64,000 nt of DNA from Antarctobacter sediminis (GTDB taxonomy: Bacteria > Pseudomonadota > Alphaproteobacteria > Rhodobacterales > Rhodobacteraceae), in assembly GCF_019218285.1 (NCBI RefSeq), contig NZ_JAHUZG010000001.1:1488001-1552000 (forward strand), written 5' to 3'. A model generated the notes under the pieces. It was not told where the DNA came from. It did no database searches and saw nothing but the letters and a program-made list of their open reading frames with translations. Made by a program: the position numbers and the translations under genes. Of this stretch, positions 10,851 through 37,299 are shown one piece after another (position 1 is the stretch's first letter; each line of letters begins with the position of its first letter).

Positions 10851-10925
10851 TGGCAGCCCGTAGGGGAATCGAACCCCTCTTTCCAGGTTGAAAACCTGGC
10901 GTCCTAACCGATAGACGAACGGGCC
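10851..10925 (-). tRNA. tRNA-Glu (TTC)
   Basis: Minus strand GGCCCGT ... ACGGGCT gives a 7-bp acceptor (G1.U72 at the end), D arm GTCTATCGGTTAGGAC, anticodon stem CAGGT/CTGG region with loop TTTCAAC (anticodon TTC), T arm AGGGG-TTCGATT-CCCCT and encoded GCCA 3' end. A possible promoter TTGCAA-N17-TAGAAC lies upstream on the minus strand. Confidence 0.96.
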
Positions 10926-17833: not shown

Positions 17834-18430
17834 ATGCCGCCCATGGCACGCACTCAGGGAAGTCACGCCGGGACAACACGCCCCCGCATCCGAGACGCCG
17901 CTTTGCGGCTTTTCGCGGAACATGGCTACGCGGCGGTCTCGATGCGCCAGATCGCCTCACAGGTCGGGCTTCAGGTGGGGGCACTCTATAATTACACGCC
18001 GGACAAACAGGCACTGCTGTTTTCCCTGATGCAGGATCACATGGACGAACTGCTGGCCGAGTGGCGCACCCGTCCGGAACCAGACAACCCACTGGCGCGG
18101 CTTGAGGATTTCGTTCGCTTCCACATCGAATTTCACCTTGAACGACCGCAACTGGTCTTCATCGCCTACATGGAACTGCGCAACCTCACGCCCGAGAATT
18201 TCGCGGTGATCGAAGGCCTGCGGCGCGACTATGAGGATGCGCTGGAATCGATCCTTGGCGCCGGCGTCGCCGCGGGCTGTTTCGACGTGACGGATACGAA
18301 ACTGGCCACTCTGGCGGTGATTGCCATGCTGACGGGGGTGACCACATGGTACCGCCCCGGAGGCCGCCTGAGCGTCCCCGAAGTGCAGGATCTCTACTGG
18401 GACATGGTCCGCAAATCGGTCAGCCGCTGA
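17834..18430 (+). CDS. TetR-family transcriptional regulator
   Basis: 198 residues. HTH domain at about 18-60 (RDAALRLFAEHGYAAVSMRQIASQVGLQVGALYNYTPDKQALL), with the usual tyrosine-rich recognition helix. The C-terminal ligand domain contains FIAYMELRNLTPENF and resembles the TetR_C families of fatty-acid or acyl-CoA regulators. ATG at 17834 or 17843. A perfect dyad lies immediately upstream. The gene downstream is a repeat element and then convergent cytochrome genes, so the only close potential target besides itself is the divergent lipoprotein. Confidence 0.92.
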   Translation: MPPMARTQGSHAGTTRPRIRDAALRLFAEHGYAAVSMRQIASQVGLQVGALYNYTPDKQALLFSLMQDHMDELLAEWRTRPEPDNPLARLEDFVRFHIEFHLERPQLVFIAYMELRNLTPENFAVIEGLRRDYEDALESILGAGVAAGCFDVTDTKLATLAVIAMLTGVTTWYRPGGRLSVPEVQDLYWDMVRKSVSR

Positions 18431-18523
18431 CGGCCACCCCCCCTTCGCACCTCTTGGGCTCCGCCCGTTCCCCGCTCAATCTGTCCCCCGGACAGATTGC
18501 CACCTTCGGTGGACCGGTGCTCA

Positions 18524-18686
18524 GCCATGTTCCCCGGAGCCATCTCTCGCTTGAGGCCGATCAGGGCCGGACCGGGGCGCGATGCAAGGAGGCGCAGCCC
18601 CACGCAAAGCGTGGCTTGTCCTTGCATCGGGGCACGGTCTGGCCCAGGCCCTCAGAAAAGCGAGGGATGCGTCCGGGGATCATGGC
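18524..18686. repeat. Long-hairpin repeat element, copy 1
   Basis: One imperfect hairpin of 163 nt: outer stem GCCATG.TCCCCGGA with TCCGGGGA.CATGGC, middle stems CTCGCTTGAGGCC/GGCCCTCA..AAAGCGAG and GGGCCGGACC/GGTCTGGCCC, inner stem TGCAAGGA/TCCTTGCA, apical stem CCACGC-AAA-GCGTGG. It matches the element at 25892-26053 in length, layout and unpaired motif GGCGCAGCC...CTTG, with compensating base changes. Both copies lie between the 3' ends of convergent genes. After it come shared sequence (CTGTTC..TGGTGA) and short GC hairpins up to about 18780. Confidence 0.85.
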
Positions 18687-18803
18687 GCGCCTGTTCCCTG
18701 GTGAATCCCGAAGCGGCAACCGGCGCCCAAGGCGCCGCGCAAAGGGCCGGCGGGCGGGCGCCTTTGCGGCAAAGCCGCAAACAGTCCCGTCCCGCCGGGC
18801 CGC

Positions 18804-19217
18804 TCAGCGGCTCGCCTGAATCGATTCGAGGTATTCCGCCAATGCCACCAGCTTGCGCGGGGTCGGGGTCGGCTTGCCGTCGCCGCTGTCGTAAGGCACC
18901 AGATCGCCCTCCAGCAACTCGCCGAACTCCGGCATCCACGAAGCTGACCGGTCCGACCGGGCATAGCCATCGATGATCGACATCACCTTTGCGCGGGGAA
19001 AGACATCGCCGTTCCGCACCTTGATCAATGTCAGGTTCTGCGGCGGCGGTGTCATGGCGCGCGCCATCTGGCCGTTGCCCTTGCCATCTGCCCCGTGGCA
19101 GATCGCGCAATTTTCCATGAAAAGCCCGCGCCCGTCGCTGGCACCCGGCATCGCCGTATCTTCGACGCAGCCCGCCAGTGTCAGCGCCGCTGCCATTCCG
19201 ATCATTCCCCTGAACAT
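18804..19217 (-). CDS. c-type cytochrome lipoprotein
   Basis: 137 residues. Starts MFRGMIGMAAALTLAGC: a lipoprotein signal with lipobox LAGC. One heme-binding motif CAICHGADGKGNG at about residue 37, with a likely distal Met in SWMPEFGE, and a C-terminal helix LVALAEYLESIQ. This is a monoheme class I cytochrome c anchored to the membrane facing the periplasm, an electron carrier of unknown partner. The start at 19217 follows AGGAACGAC. It is followed on the same strand by nothing, and preceded 73 bp upstream by a second cytochrome of the same build. Confidence 0.9.
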   Translation of the reverse strand: MFRGMIGMAAALTLAGCVEDTAMPGASDGRGLFMENCAICHGADGKGNGQMARAMTPPPQNLTLIKVRNGDVFPRAKVMSIIDGYARSDRSASWMPEFGELLEGDLVPYDSGDGKPTPTPRKLVALAEYLESIQASR

Positions 19218-19290
19218 GTCGTTCCTGCCCTCATTCTGTTGCCACGCTCCTGCCAAAGCAACGCGGCCTCGGCAAGCCCCCTCGCGGTGC

Positions 19291-19752
19291 TCAACCGTCA
19301 CCTGTCTCTTGCAGAGCTTCCACGTAGGTCAGGACGTCCAGCAACCCTTTGGGTGTCATGATGACCTCTCCCGAGGGGGCGCGCCATTCCACCACGGGGC
19401 TGCTCAACTCGTCCCGGAACTCGGGCATGGAGCCGCGGTGGAACTTGCCCGGATACCCGTGTATCGTTTCCAGCACCCGTTCGGCGGGAAAGATGCCACC
19501 GTTGGCGCTGGACAACCGCGTCAGATCCGGCGGGGGAACCGGAAGATCCGCCCCCAGCGCCCCGTCGCCCTGCCCGGACGCCCCGTGGCAGTAGGCGCAG
19601 TTGGCAGCGTAGATTCGCGCGCCCGGCTCCGGTTCGACAGCCTCGGCAGAGGGGCTGAACCAGCTGCGGCTGGCACCGGTTCGCGCGTCCCAGAAGGGCG
19701 TGCAGGCTGTGGCCGCGATCAGCGCCACACTGGCAAGGGCCTTGAAATACAT
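19291..19752 (-). CDS. c-type cytochrome, probable lipoprotein
   Basis: 153 residues. N-terminal signal ALASVALIAATAC may be a lipobox (ATAC, not ideal). Heme motif CAYCHGASGQGDG at about residue 53; axial Met candidate in RGSMPEFRDE; C-terminal helix LLDVLTYVEALQ. The layout and the PPPxLT segment after the heme match the neighbouring 137-aa cytochrome, so the two are likely paralogs in an operon. ATG at 19752 follows GGAGCGGGAC. No oxidase or dehydrogenase gene is near; the electron partner is unknown. Confidence 0.88.
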   Translation of the reverse strand: MYFKALASVALIAATACTPFWDARTGASRSWFSPSAEAVEPEPGARIYAANCAYCHGASGQGDGALGADLPVPPPDLTRLSSANGGIFPAERVLETIHGYPGKFHRGSMPEFRDELSSPVVEWRAPSGEVIMTPKGLLDVLTYVEALQETGDG

Positions 19753-23914: not shown

Positions 23915-25201
23915 ATGACGCGCCAGCCGCCCCCTTTCGCCCCTTTCGAGTGGATGATCGCATGGCGCTATCTGCGCGCCAAACGCGCCGAAGGCGGCGT
24001 ATCGGTGATGACATGGATTTCGCTGATCGGGATCATGCTGGCGGTCTTTGCGCTGATCGCGACGCTGGCGGTGCGCTCGGGCTTTCGGGCCGAGTTCGTG
24101 GATACGATCGTCGGCGCAAATGCGCATGCGACCGTCTACCACATCCAGCGCACGGACGAGAACGGCGTGCCGACACGCACCCTGCCCGACTATGCCGCCA
24201 TGGCGGACAAGGTGCGCACGGTCGACGGCGTGACGCGGGTGGCCCCGCTGGTCAAGGGGCAGGTCATGGCCTCGGGTCAGGGGCGCAACGCGGGCGTCGA
24301 GGTCTTTGGCATCGCCAAGGACGACCTGATCGAGATCCCGCGCATCGCCGACATGGAAACCGGCATCGGCAATATCGTCGATTTCGACATGGGCATCGCA
24401 ATCGGGTCCGGCGTGGCACAGATGCTGGGGGTCGGACTGGGGGACAAGATCGACCTGATCTCGCCCAACGGGGTCAAGACCGCCTTCGGCGTCAGCCCGC
24501 GCGTCAAAAGCTATCAGATCACCTATATCTTTACGGCCGGGCGCTATGACATCGACCGCACGCGGGTCTACATGCCTTTCGAAGAGGCCCAGTTGTATTT
24601 CAACCGCGAAGGCGTGGCGGACGAGTTGGAAATCACCGTAACCGACCCGGAAAACGTCGAACGGTTCAGCCGCGCCATCGGACAGGCCGCCGGTCCCGGC
24701 GCGCTGGTCTGGACGTGGCAGGACGCCAGCAGCGGCTTCCTGCGGGCGCTGGACATCGAGGACAACGTGATGTTCGTGATCCTGTCGGTGCTGGTCCTGA
24801 TCGCGACGATGAACATCGTCTCGGGGCTGATCATGCTGGTCAAGAACAAGGGCCGCGACATCGGCATCCTGCGCACCATGGGCCTGACCGAAGGTTCGGT
24901 CATGCGGGTCTTTTTCATCTGTGGCTCCTTCACCGGTCTGCTCGGCACCGCCATGGGCGTTGTGCTGGGCTGCCTCTTTGCCATCTACATCGACCCGATC
25001 TTTGCCGCCGTGAATTATCTCTCCGGCGGCGGGGTCTGGGATCCCTCGATCCGGGGCATCTATGCCCTTCCCGCCGAACTGCACCTCAAGGACGTCCTGT
25101 CGGCTGTGGGCCTGTCGTTGGGGCTGAGTTTCATCGTCACGATCTTTCCGGCGCGCCGCGCCGCCCGGATGAACCCGGTAGAGGCGCTGCGCTATGAATG
25201 A
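23915..25201 (+). CDS. lolC: Lipoprotein-releasing ABC transporter permease LolC/LolE
   Basis: 428 residues. One N-terminal membrane helix (about 34-55, [21 protein letters not shown]), a large periplasmic MacB-like domain (56-275), then three helices at about 285-410. N-terminal [22 protein letters not shown] is typical LolC/E. With LolD it extracts outer-membrane lipoproteins from the inner membrane and passes them to LolA. Many alphaproteobacteria have a single LolC/E-type (LolF) permease, as here. Overlaps lolD by 8 bp. Confidence 0.93.
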
Positions 25202-25877
25202 CACCGTGTTGCGCCTCTCGGGCATCGAGAAAAGCTACAACAAGGGCCAGCCGAACGAGGTGCAGGTCCTGCGCGGCATCGACCTGAGCGTCGGCCGGGG
25301 CGAGGTCGTGGCGCTGGTGGCCCCCTCCGGGGCCGGCAAATCGACGCTTCTGCATATCGCCGGGCTGCTGGACACGCCCGACAGCGGCGCGGTCGAGATC
25401 GGCGGCGAGGCCATGCAGGGCCGCAGCGACCGGCGGCGCACGGCGGTACGGCGCGCGGATGTGGGCTTTGTCTACCAGTTCCACCACCTGCTGCCCGAGT
25501 TCACCGCGCTTGAAAACATCGTGCTGCCGCAACTGGCCAATGGCGCCGGACGCCAAGCCGCCAAAACCCGCGCGCTGGACCTGCTGGACAGCGTCGGCAT
25601 CAGGGACCGCGCCGCGCACCGCCCCGCCGCCCTGTCCGGCGGCGAACAACAGCGGGTCGCCTTCTGCCGCGCCATGGCCAACCAGCCGCGCCTGCTGCTG
25701 GCGGATGAACCCACCGGCAACCTCGACCCATCGACCTCGGACCGGGTGTTCGGCGCGCTGATGACGCTGGTGCGCGAAACCGGCCTCTCGGCGCTGATCG
25801 CCACGCATAACCTCGACCTTGCCGCCCAGATGGACCGCCGCCTGCGGCTCGACGGCGGCACCCTGCAAGAGATCTGA
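25194..25877 (+). CDS. lolD: Lipoprotein-releasing ABC transporter ATPase LolD
   Basis: 227 residues. Walker [14 protein letters not shown]-loop [16 protein letters not shown], signature [14 protein letters not shown], Walker [13 protein letters not shown] and H-loop ATHN. The [14 protein letters not shown] segment is LolD-specific within the MacB-type group. It powers the LolC-type permease encoded just upstream with an 8-bp overlap. The gene is followed by the second long-hairpin repeat. Confidence 0.96.
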
Positions 25878-25891
25878 CAAGGGGCCGCAAG

Positions 25892-26053
25892 GGCCTGTTC
25901 TCCGGAGCCATCCTGTCGCTGAGGCCGATCGGAACCAAAGCGTCTGGCTCTGCAAGGGGGCGCAGCCCCGAGCGCAGCTCGGCTTGCCCTTGCAGCGCCA
26001 GAGGGTCTGGTTCAGGCCTCAATCAGCGACAGGATGGATCCGGGGCACCGGCC
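25892..26053. repeat. Long-hairpin repeat element, copy 2
   Basis: Imperfect hairpin of 162 nt: GGCC......CCGGA.CCATCC with GGATGGATCCGG......GGCC, TGTCGCTGAGGCC/GGCCTCAATCAGCGACA, GAACCA..GTCTGGC/GCCAGA..TGGTTC, TGCAAGGG/CCCTTGCA and apical CCGAGC-GCA-GCTCGG flanked by GGCGCAGCC and CTTG. Same layout as 18524-18686 with compensating changes in the stems. Lies between convergent lolD and aminotransferase genes. Confidence 0.85.
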
Positions 26054-26089
26054 CGGGGCTTGTTCTTTGGTGAGTTCAAGAAGCAACAA

Positions 26090-26171: not shown

Positions 26172-27365
26172 TCACGCCGTCAGACTGCGGACGGCGGCCT
26201 CTGGCGCCCCCACCCCGTGCGGGATCTCCAGCGCGGTCAAACCGGCCTCGACGACGCCGATCAGGCCAAGGATGCCATGCGCATTGACATGGCCCATGTG
26301 ACCAAACCGGAAATAGCCCGACCCGGTCGGATCCTCGGGGTCGCCCACGCGCAAGCCGACGCCCAGGGCAACCCCCGCCTCGTCGCGGCACCAGGCGCGC
26401 AACCGGTCGCCCAGCGGCGCCCCCAGTTCCGCCGCCGTCACCGCATGGGAACGATGCGCCGGATCGGCCACGTTCAACCGGAACGGCCCCTCCTGCGCCC
26501 AGACCTCGCCCGCCGCCCAGACAGCCCGTGCAAGCCGGGCATGGCGCGCCCAGATCGCCTCCATCCCCTCGTCGCGGACCATGTCCAGAGCCGCGCGCAG
26601 TCCATAAAGGTGGTGCGTGGGCGCGGTACCGCCGAAATACTGGTAGAACATCTCCGGTTCGGCGCGCGGCCCCCAATCCCAGTACCGCGAGACCCGCGGC
26701 ATGGCGCGGCGCACCTCGGCGGCGCGGGCGTTGAAAAAGACAAACCCCATGCCCGGCGGCACCATCAGTCCCTTCTGCGACCCGGTGACCATTACGTCGA
26801 CGCCCCAGGCGTCCATGCGGAATTCGTCACAACCAAGCGAGGCGATGCAATCCGCCATCAACAGCGCCGGGTGCCCGACCTCGTCCAACACCGCCCGCAA
26901 CGCGGCAATGTCGGACCTCACCGAAGACGAGGTATCCACATGAACGGCCAGCACCGCCTTGATCCGCTGATCCTTATCCGCCAGCAAGGCGGCACGCAGG
27001 CGTTCGGGATCAATCGGGGTGGTGCGGCCGTGATCGATGATCTGCACCTCGGCACCGATGCCCTGCGCCATTTCAGCCCAGCCATGGCCGAAGGCCCCGG
27101 TCGTGGGCACGAGCACCGCCTCACCCGGGGCGATGCAATTGGACAACGCCGCCTCCCACGTGCCGTGCCCATTGCAGATGTACATGGCCACGTTGCCCTC
27201 GGTCTGAGCCACGTAGCGCAGGTCCGGGACCAGCCCGGCCACCATCTGGTGCAATTCGGGCGCATAGATGTCAGGGGCCGGGCGATGCATCGCCTGAAGC
27301 ACCCGGTCGGGCATCATCGACGGGCCGGGCAAAGCCATATGGGGGCGACCGTGGGACAGTGACAT
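26172..27365 (-). CDS. Class V aminotransferase (alanine/serine-glyoxylate type)
   Basis: 397 residues. Substrate and PLP residues: ICNGHGTWEAALSN near the N-terminus, MADCIASLGCDEFRMD (PLP-ring Asp) and the Schiff-base Lys in VTGSQKGLMVPPGMGFV. The family transfers the amino group of Ala or Ser (or aspartate/phosphonates) to glyoxylate or pyruvate. ATG at 27365 follows AGGAGTCGCC; a longer upstream reading frame is not credible. No C1 or glyoxylate gene nearby, so the physiological pair is open (serine-glyoxylate is the likeliest in a Roseobacter). Confidence 0.88.
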   Translation of the reverse strand: MSLSHGRPHMALPGPSMMPDRVLQAMHRPAPDIYAPELHQMVAGLVPDLRYVAQTEGNVAMYICNGHGTWEAALSNCIAPGEAVLVPTTGAFGHGWAEMAQGIGAEVQIIDHGRTTPIDPERLRAALLADKDQRIKAVLAVHVDTSSSVRSDIAALRAVLDEVGHPALLMADCIASLGCDEFRMDAWGVDVMVTGSQKGLMVPPGMGFVFFNARAAEVRRAMPRVSRYWDWGPRAEPEMFYQYFGGTAPTHHLYGLRAALDMVRDEGMEAIWARHARLARAVWAAGEVWAQEGPFRLNVADPAHRSHAVTAAELGAPLGDRLRAWCRDEAGVALGVGLRVGDPEDPTGSGYFRFGHMGHVNAHGILGLIGVVEAGLTALEIPHGVGAPEAAVRSLTA

Positions 27366-27492
27366 TGGCGACTCCTGCAAAATTCCGCGCGACGTTAGCG
27401 GGCGCCGTCCTGCCGTCAATACGTGCCCTCGCTGGACAGGCCGGAGAATGCCGCGTAAACCGCGCGACTGAACGCTGGAGACCCTTTCGCGC

Positions 27493-28206
27493 ATGCTGGC
27501 AAAACTCTGGAACAGGCTGGACCACGCGGAGCGCAAGCTGCGCCGCTCTTTCGGCACGGATATCTCGACCCCTGCGGCGCGGCGTCGGGCCAAGCTGCAT
27601 TACCACCTGTTCGACCACGCCTTTCTGCGCGTGTTCTGGACCAATTTCTTTCAGATCGCCCCCGGCGTCTATCGGTCGAACCAGCCAACGCACCGCCGGT
27701 TCGAACGCTATGCGGCCATGGGCATCAAGACCGTGGTGAACCTGCGCGGCGAAGACCGTTTCGCGCACTACCTCTTTGAGAAAGAAAGCGTCGAGGCGCT
27801 TGGCATGACATTGGTCAATGCCAAGCTCTGGGCGCGCGAAGCGGCCCCGCGCAAACGGATCGTCGCGGTGATCGACGCCCTGCGCGCGGCGGAAAAGCCG
27901 ATGATGTTCCACTGCAAGTCCGGTGCGGACCGGGCCGGATTCGTCGCGGCCATGTACCTGCTGGTCTTCGAGGGCGCCTCGATCGAAGCGGCCAAGAAAC
28001 AGCTGAGCCTTCGCTATATCCACCTCGATTTCACCAAAACCGGCGTTCAGGACTACATCCTGCGGGTCTTTGAGGCGCGCCAGCAACTGGGTGAGATCGG
28101 CTTTGAACACTGGATCCGCACCGAATATCACGCCAAGACGATCCAGCCCGCATGGGAGGCCCGCCGTCCCGAGATCGACTGCGCGCGGGAGCTGATGGGT
28201 GGCTGA
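27493..28206 (+). CDS. Tyrosine/dual-specificity phosphatase family protein
   Basis: 237 residues. Phosphatase signature HCKSGADRAGFVAA (CX5R: Cys about 145, Arg 151) with upstream VVNLRGED, as in plant/fungal-type DSPs and bacterial inositol or lipid phosphatases. N-terminus is basic and may lie at the membrane (FLRVFWTNFFQIAPGVYRSNQP). It overlaps the following exporter by 8 bp, so the two are made together. A phosphatase acting on a phospholipid or lipid-linked intermediate handled by the exporter is a reasonable guess (inference). Confidence 0.85.
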   Translation: MLAKLWNRLDHAERKLRRSFGTDISTPAARRRAKLHYHLFDHAFLRVFWTNFFQIAPGVYRSNQPTHRRFERYAAMGIKTVVNLRGEDRFAHYLFEKESVEALGMTLVNAKLWAREAAPRKRIVAVIDALRAAEKPMMFHCKSGADRAGFVAAMYLLVFEGASIEAAKKQLSLRYIHLDFTKTGVQDYILRVFEARQQLGEIGFEHWIRTEYHAKTIQPAWEARRPEIDCARELMGG

Positions 28207-36929: not shown

Positions 36930-37003
36930 GGCGAGTTGGCGGAGTGGTGACGCAGCGGATTGCAAATCCGTGTACACCGGTTCGATTCCGGTACTCGCCT
37001 CCA
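36930..37003 (+). tRNA. tRNA-Cys (GCA)
   Basis: GGCGAGT/ACTCGCC acceptor, anticodon arm GGATT-GCA-AATCC, T arm CCGG-TTCGATT-CCGG and encoded TCCA end. Confidence 0.97.
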
Positions 37004-37222: not shown

Positions 37223-37299
37223 TGGTACCGCCTCCCCGGCTCGAACGGGGGACCTCTTGATCCACAATCAAGCGCTCTAACCTACTGAGCTAAGGCGGC
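37223..37299 (-). tRNA. tRNA-His (GTG), alphaproteobacterial type
   Basis: Minus strand GCCGCCT/AGGCGGT acceptor (G1.U72), D arm GCTCAGTAGGTTAGAGC, anticodon arm CTTGA-TTGTGGA-TCAAG (GTG), T arm CCCCG-TTCGAGC-CGGGG, discriminator A73 and encoded CCA. The base before G1 is T, so the usual G-1 is not encoded. Confidence 0.96.

Follow-up and report, generated by a model that had tools for sequence, protein, structure and literature searches.

The ERIC sequence is a long imperfect palindrome, YPAL has the shape of a long hairpin, and REP/BIME elements lie at gene ends, in mosaics with other short palindromes. ERIC (also termed IRU or RU-1) is described as a 127-bp enterobacterial repeat, dispersed in intergenic regions, co-transcribed with its neighbors, and with an argued effect on the stability of mRNA that depends on its orientation (PMC2229807). 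RU-2, which is given as the Yersinia palindromic sequence, YPAL (PMC2229807), has a stated length of 168 bp (PMC2759123), and that of REPs is 20-40 bp (PMC3733652). The Caulobacter CIR, an alphaproteobacterial intergenic repeat of about 110 bp, is described as having a conserved predicted RNA structure made of two arms and a linker, with GANTC motifs (PMC2229807). MITEs are reported as typically AT-rich (PMC10969869).

The element considered here occurs twice in the 64,000-nucleotide window that was analysed (G000:C1:1488001-1552000, from Antarctobacter sediminis). Its parts and neighbors, in window positions, are:

17834..18430, + strand: TetR-family regulator upstream of copy 1, its stop 94 nt before the element
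18525..18714, + strand: copy 1, class 1, X1 to tail (covariance-model score 194.2 bits)
18525..18534, + strand: X1 of copy 1 (CCATGTTCCC), the 5' direct repeat and IR partner
18583..18626, + strand: apical three-way domain of copy 1: TGCAAGGA, GGC-GCA-GCC mini-hairpin, CCACGC-GCGTGG hairpin, unpaired CTTG, TCCTTGCA
18676..18685, + strand: IR of copy 1 (GGGATCATGG), the complement of X1 at 9 of 10 positions
18689..18698, + strand: X3 of copy 1 (GCCTGTTCCC), the 3' direct repeat, equal to X1 at 8 of 10 positions
18699..18714, + strand: conserved tail of copy 1, TGGTGAATCCCGAAGC
18744..18788, no strand given: separate GC-rich intergenic repeat adjoining copy 1 (GGGCCGGCGGGCGGGCG...AACAGTCCC)
18804..19301, - strand: cytochrome c-type protein (Pfam), the convergent gene of copy 1
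25194..25877, + strand: ABC transporter ATPase upstream of copy 2, its stop 15 nt before the element
25893..26084, + strand: copy 2, class 1, X1 to tail (covariance-model score 167.6 bits)
25893..25902, + strand: X1 of copy 2 (GCCTGTTCTC)
25951..25994, + strand: apical three-way domain of copy 2: TGCAAGGG, GGC-GCA-GCC, CCGAGC-GCTCGG, CTTG, CCCTTGCA
26043..26052, + strand: IR of copy 2 (GGGCACCGGC), a partial complement of X1 (7 of 10 positions)
26058..26067, + strand: X3 of copy 2 (GCTTGTTCTT), equal to X1 at 8 of 10 positions
26068..26084, + strand: conserved tail of copy 2, TGGTGAGTTCAAGAAGC
26172..27593, - strand: class-V aminotransferase (Pfam), the convergent gene of copy 2

A first-pass annotation had proposed two hairpin copies, each at a meeting point of convergent genes. 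Both are present in the sequence, copy 1 between TetR (+) and cytochrome c (-) genes and copy 2 between ABC ATPase (+) and class-V aminotransferase (-) genes. The 162 nt then given for the unit takes in the hairpin but falls short of the conserved unit, which is about 190 nt long (18525-18714 and 25893-26084), the hairpin being followed by a conserved 3' tail. The downstream stretch that had been included, to about 18790, proved to be a separate GC-rich repeat that occurs without the hairpin too.

That GC-rich repeat (GGGYCGGCGGGCGGGCG, a hairpin, then AACAGTCCC) is found downstream of many element copies. It also stands by itself at numerous sites across the genus, among them sites in the hairpin-free genome G004; read on the minus strand, it would be part of the convergent gene's 3' UTR. 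Upstream of copy 1 (18478-18523, and at L002 1381-1500) are the small palindromes AATCTGTCC-CCC-GGACAGATT and CCACC-TTC-GGTGG, shared with the copy at C1:1192824; a short part recurs at a solo tail, C1:1216392 (L149). Gene ends in this genome look like mosaics of several palindromic repeats. Elsewhere in the window, Rfam models match a cobalamin riboswitch (988-1192, - strand) and tRNA genes at 10854-10925 (-), 36930-37000 (+), and 37226-37299 (-).

The architecture of the element is as follows: X1; CGGAGCC; a hairpin of about 70 bp with a three-way tip; rcX (IR); X3; and (T/G)GGTGAGYCCnGAAGC. Predicted fold energies are -116.6 kcal/mol for copy 1 and -114.4 kcal/mol for copy 2 (z -8.74 and -8.66), and none of 200 shuffles of either copy was equally stable. 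The class-1 tip is a three-way junction composed of a stem, a mini-hairpin (GGCGCAGCC), a GC hairpin, and an unpaired CTTG. The earlier annotation took both GGCGCAGCC and CTTG as unpaired; this is so for CTTG, but the former folds as the mini-hairpin GGC-GCA-GCC, which becomes CC-GCA-GG or TCGC-GAA-GCGA in other copies. (The mini-hairpin is paired in just 79% of cells because Albimonas copies are misaligned at those columns.) A second class has both ends in common with class 1 and differs in its tip, AAATYGCCGAGGGGCCCC...GGGGAGACGGCYATTTTGCTTG.

The initial clue to selection on structure was that stems differ between the two copies in compensating ways, and these differences are real: CCACGC/GCGTGG (18600-18614) versus CCGAGC/GCTCGG (25968-25982), and TGCAAGGA/TCCTTGCA versus TGCAAGGG/CCCTTGCA. 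Larger alignments bear the interpretation out. For class 1, 46 of 70 copies were retained after thinning at 90% identity and aligned by sequence only (A3). The long hairpin is paired in 93.5% of 2815 cells, and double changes occur at 35 of 62 pairs: 415 double-changed cells, against 133.9 ± 8.2 in shuffles (reached by 0 of 500). Sliding the register by one to three columns lowers pairing to 40-45%. For class 2, 61 of 68 copies were aligned (A5), seven divergent or differently built ones having been removed by hand. The inner stems are paired in 86.2% of 2303 cells (36-49% in slid registers), with double changes at 34 of 38 pairs and 435 double-changed cells against 141.7 ± 10.4 in shuffles (again 0 of 500). 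Two core pairs of class 2, 71:118 and 78:109, are identical in all 61 copies. This is strong evidence, at the level of sequence comparison, that selection acts on the structure of the element. A chance palindrome is ruled out by the z of about -8.7 together with covariation in both classes.

By eye, the inner arm of the Albimonas copies L193 and L235 looks reverse-complemented with respect to L185 and L201, with pairing intact. Template switching or arm inversion would leave such a pattern.

On which nucleic acid does selection act? A G·U pair on one strand is an A·C mismatch on the opposite strand, so the two can be counted against each other. Class-1 stems contain 99 G·U and 18 A·C cells (7 of the 18 from the misaligned Albimonas mini-hairpin columns), or 59 versus 11 pair-by-genome events (p 4e-9 against a 1:1 null); in slid registers the ratio is about 1:1. 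Class-2 stems contain 109 versus 33 cells, or 90 versus 25 events; under a 2:1 null the p value is 0.004. The stricter null was applied to class 2, and the class-1 value is against 1:1; unpaired columns carry a roughly 2:1 bias toward C>T and A>G on the same strand, so part of the G·U excess may be mutational. The excess of G·U over A·C in both classes nonetheless provides good evidence that the + strand RNA is the target of selection, which sharpens the original case for structural constraint.

These counts bear directly on the idea that the element is a DNA palindrome with no RNA role (a cruciform, a site involved in supercoiling or replication, or a passive MITE remnant), whose pairing is maintained through palindrome correction by template switching. 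The arms are long and often perfect, and whole-arm replacement between copies, noted by eye, could be achieved by template switching. Double-stranded DNA, however, would not be expected to produce the G·U excess seen in two classes, nor does the idea sit well with an asymmetric, sequence-conserved tip or with the invariant class-2 core pairs. A purely DNA-level palindrome is less likely given the G·U/A·C asymmetry, and overall appears very improbable.

The first-pass annotation had suggested a Roseobacter-type repeat family and a covariance-model search beyond the window. Such a search found many more copies with pairing kept, and neither an absence of further copies nor a scatter of unpaired ones inside genes; a family of this kind is indeed what emerges. 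Six class-1 copies were identified in the window's genome by DNA search and covariance model R1. Of 41 genomes searched, R1 matched seven. Five of these are among the six genus members, the window's own genome included; the other two, G007 and G023, belong to the window's family and gave weaker matches. The 39 strong class-1 copies in the genus are divided among G000 (6), Antarctobacter heliothermus G001 (6), G002 (1), Mameliella sp. CS4 G003 (19), and M. alba G005 (7), with none in G004. Not counted are echoes of the palindrome on the minus strand and seven matches that were weak or partial (G003 C253, C296:71933, and C296:27845; G001 C112; G005 C21 and C28; G000 C1:1234313).

The exact pattern of the two conserved ends occurs in 10 of 394 Rhodobacteraceae genomes, with 21 matches in Albimonas pacifica (G339); the reversed-pattern control gave zero among the matches listed. 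In a collection of 84,980 species, the end pattern retrieved 60 stretches under 15 record titles, of which three belong to the genus, ten lie outside it, and two do not show the architecture. Those two (one stretch each, Clostridia MAG L197 and Streptomyces L213) were for that reason discounted as chance matches. The ten titles outside the genus are Rhodobacterales or alphaproteobacterial, Enemella excepted. (The public assembly Enemella evansiae TN21-6, L187, has a contig equal in length to G007:C13, filed in the window's family; it appears to be a Rhodobacteraceae genome and is probably mislabelled.) No exact match of the class-1/2 end pattern was present in viral_contigs, and copy 1 had no blastn match in the plasmid collection.

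Class-2 model R3 matched 27 of 295 Rhodobacteraceae genomes at E ≤1e-4, two of them only over about 55-60 positions; not all of these are certainly class 2, because class-1 copies and a third form score with R3 as well, and copy counts are lower bounds, because at most eight candidates were scored per genome. Two class-2 copies lie in the genome of the window itself, at C1:182607-182806 (-) and C2:724044-724231 (+). The third form, in G052 and G186 (L259, L260), has the shared ends with the tip GGGCGCG...GAGCCACGCGCAG...GAGCACCCACCCCTTGA, which the tip of G003:C253:7387-7580 (L060) resembles; it is possibly a third subclass.

Where do the copies lie relative to genes? Neighbors were called with a simple composition-based gene finder, which missed the Pfam-supported minus-strand neighbor of copy 1. 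A same-strand gene precedes 92 of 137 copies, and 68 of the 137 sit between convergent genes (23/39 genus class-1, 35/68 class-2, 10/30 Albimonas). The left gene is on the strand of the element for 29/39 genus class-1, 46/68 class-2, and 17/30 Albimonas copies, and is called on the opposite strand for 10/39, 22/68, and 13/30, respectively; the bias is weak in Albimonas, and the L053/L073/L080 locus, with a minus-strand thiolase at its left, is a real strand exception. Median distances from the upstream stop are 21 nt (genus class-1), 10 nt (class-2), and 69 nt (Albimonas). Ten neighboring proteins scanned against Pfam have no common function (for example Sua5, tRNA synthetase, Fur, TrpE, GST, and thiolase). 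The position just past stop codons in many copies favors a 3'-UTR element.

Intrinsic terminators with a U tract within 220 nt downstream on the + strand are rare (3/39 genus, 11/68 class-2), so there is little to suggest that the element serves simply to terminate the upstream gene; minus-strand terminator-like sites in the same interval are commoner (18/39 and 29/68). X3 itself is pyrimidine-rich and directly follows the hairpin, and in copy 2 a terminator-like flag was raised at 26039-26057, with GCTTGTTCTT as its tail.

The most likely reading, which we put at roughly 45% on the basis of position and structure, is that the Rhodobacteraceae carry a dispersed RNA element in 3' UTRs, which acts in cis at mRNA 3' ends. 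The element would be transcribed within the 3' UTR of the upstream gene, and its hairpin could block 3' exonucleases, serve in processing or termination, or do both. ERIC and REP RNAs, which are thought to behave similarly, offer a likeness for such a role. Copies would be inherited at fixed loci and homogenised within species by exchange among copies; new gene ends would occasionally gain a copy, and copies would disappear through deletion from one direct repeat (X1) to the other (X3). We infer from these sequences that the element itself is transcribed.

The same placement right after stop codons might instead indicate small RNAs that derive from 3' UTRs, are released by RNase E or RNase III, and act in trans. 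The conserved CTTG and tail and the RNA-level selection would suit such molecules. Up to 19-21 copies per genome beside unrelated genes would in our judgement be unusual for one small RNA, and few copies have a + strand intrinsic terminator; we consider this origin unlikely.

The most peculiar features of the element are its repeated words. In 65 of the 68 class-2 copies, X1 (the 8 nt before CGGAGCC) equals X3 (the 8 nt before (T/G)GGTGAG) at 7.31 of 8 positions, with 40 distinct words; permutation with the site re-chosen gives 4.67 ± 0.15, kinship ignored. Outside the local stem, agreement is 3.66 of 4 positions against 2.15 permuted, in 38 short-stem copies. (One more copy, with X1 unlike X3, was dropped to leave 64 for this comparison, and the local-stem finder underestimates some stems.) Class-1 and Albimonas copies follow the same trend, with X3 there picked as the best match to X1, no re-chosen control, and one mis-parsed copy (X_G003_C253) remaining in the set. 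Within G003 alone the signal is weak (8.42 versus 8.06 of 10 positions; 38 of 10000 permutations). IR is complementary to X1 at a mean 8.7 of 10 positions in 83 copies, and at fewer in several with other X words. At the interspecies loci L062/L289 and L053/L073, X1, IR, and X3 seem, by eye, to shift together. The 3'-UTR reading leaves the identity of X1 and X3 unexplained, and the question that these co-varying 8-nt direct repeats pose is whether they represent alternative pairing, ongoing exchange, or the footprint of insertion or movement.

Alternative pairing would make the element a switch: IR pairs with X1 to form the long hairpin or with X3 to form a local one, and the exchange controls termination or processing. 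The IR:X3 helix is paired in 90.8% of cells, similar to 94.2% for X1:IR, and the three words co-vary. The IR:X3 figure may, however, stem from the likeness of X1 to X3 rather than from pairing. Moreover, the long form is the more stable of the two (median advantage 11.8 kcal/mol for class 1, 2.7 kcal/mol for class 2), and X1 still equals X3 where the local stem is short. A switch seems quite unlikely. Folding also predicts a further hairpin, between X3 and the tail, for 31 of 38 class-1 and 56 of 63 class-2 copies; with X3 words swapped among copies it was equally stable in 28 of 200 (class 1) and 142 of 200 (class 2) swaps, so that covariation gives it no clear support.

Flank similarity places 28 of the 39 genus copies in 11 orthologous groups and leaves 11 single. 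Some orthologues show vertical descent (L056/L083, 92.6%; L054/L081, 88.9%); other copies are closer to copies in the same genome than to their own orthologue. For example, W1 shares 97% identity with the copy at C1:1192824; in G003, each of these two loci is occupied by a G003-type copy. Several loci are filled in two or more genera; at one of them, Mameliella has a class-1 copy and G041 and G074 have class-2 copies. (At the cross-genus site L275 versus L231, no useful alignment could be made by eye.) The copy 1 locus contains the element in G003 and G001, X and the tail only in G005 and G002, and neither in G004; at the L048 locus, G004 and G005 hold the tail alone. The copy 2 element is missing from all five genus mates, and the empty-site comparison revealed no junction, these sequences being too diverged. 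Internally deleted and 5'-truncated copies also were found.

Such alleles invite a reading as a non-autonomous mobile element, one that depends on its own folded RNA, or folded single-stranded DNA, in order to move. On this view X1 and X3 would be footprints of insertion or excision, IR would recognise the target word X, and any cellular role would be secondary. Direct repeats that vary among copies and agree within a copy, also outside the local stem, are consistent with movement, as are filled, tail-only, and empty alleles of one locus, truncated and deleted copies, and almost identical copies that a single genome carries at unrelated loci. Against it, the conserved tail lies outside X3, so X1 and X3 are not target duplications flanking the conserved unit; some X words recur across genera; and the apparent joint change of X1, IR, and X3 at shared loci, judged by eye, is not what a one-time duplication predicts. 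The search for an autonomous partner covered the Y1 transposase and reverse transcriptase families. Y1 transposase (PF01797) was present in 0 of 12 genomes and in 5 of 14 control genomes. Reverse transcriptase (PF00078) was present in 10 of 20 genomes, 6 of 12 with elements and 4 of 8 without, so that no link with the element is apparent: it is absent from G000, G003, and G005 (6, 19, and 7 copies) and from element-bearing G271, G007, and G074, and present in G339 (21 copies), G001, G002, G041, G194, and G239. Mobility as the primary explanation is somewhat unlikely.

A more speculative hypothesis, something of a long shot, is a mobile structured RNA that carries within itself an 8-nt address open to change. 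The words X1, IR, and X3 would be re-set together, and IR would read X by pairing, with homing into and out of X-tail sites beside stop codons, using no Y1 transposase and, in several genomes, no resident reverse transcriptase. For function and mobility alike, it is from sequence comparison that we infer.

How does the element preferred here, a cis-acting 3'-UTR RNA, compare with known families? In Rfam 15 scans of the window, of 18420-18840, and of 13 relative loci from both classes, no family reached its gathering threshold on the element. At E up to 10, the best match to 18420-18840 had E 0.39, far below gathering, and the 13 loci gave one tRNA elsewhere. A known Rfam RNA is thereby ruled out, and the literature searched contained nothing on this Rhodobacteraceae hairpin repeat family. 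It is, as far as these searches go, an undescribed family of structured RNA repeats, without an Rfam 15 match in a bacterial family with many sequenced genomes, and by their published descriptions ERIC, YPAL, and CIR would differ from it.

Like REP/BIME sequences, it lies at gene ends in mosaics; unlike them, it far exceeds 20-40 bp and is not accompanied by a RAYT (Y1) transposase, whose absence from the 12 genomes rules out a REP/RAYT element. CIR, likewise an alphaproteobacterial intergenic repeat with a conserved predicted structure, is described as two-armed, whereas this element is a single long hairpin with a three-way tip. Terminal inverted repeats (X1-CGGAGCC pairs with the 3' arm) are a MITE-like feature, and the 8-nt X1/X3 recall MITE target-site repeats, yet the conserved tail lies outside X3, and the stems are GC-rich (of 5667 letters other than gaps, 2245 are G and 2045 are C).

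In function, the element would be most like ERIC or YPAL, by analogy. It shares with ERIC a dispersed intergenic distribution and, by description, differs in host order, length, and GC-richness; its arms are conserved by structure rather than sequence; its structured tip is class-specific; and it has co-varying X1/IR/X3 words and a conserved 3' tail. YPAL is similar in size and differs in host group and in the features that separate the element from ERIC. What distinguishes this ERIC-like repeat is that its sequence alone argues for selection at the RNA level, on a stated strand.
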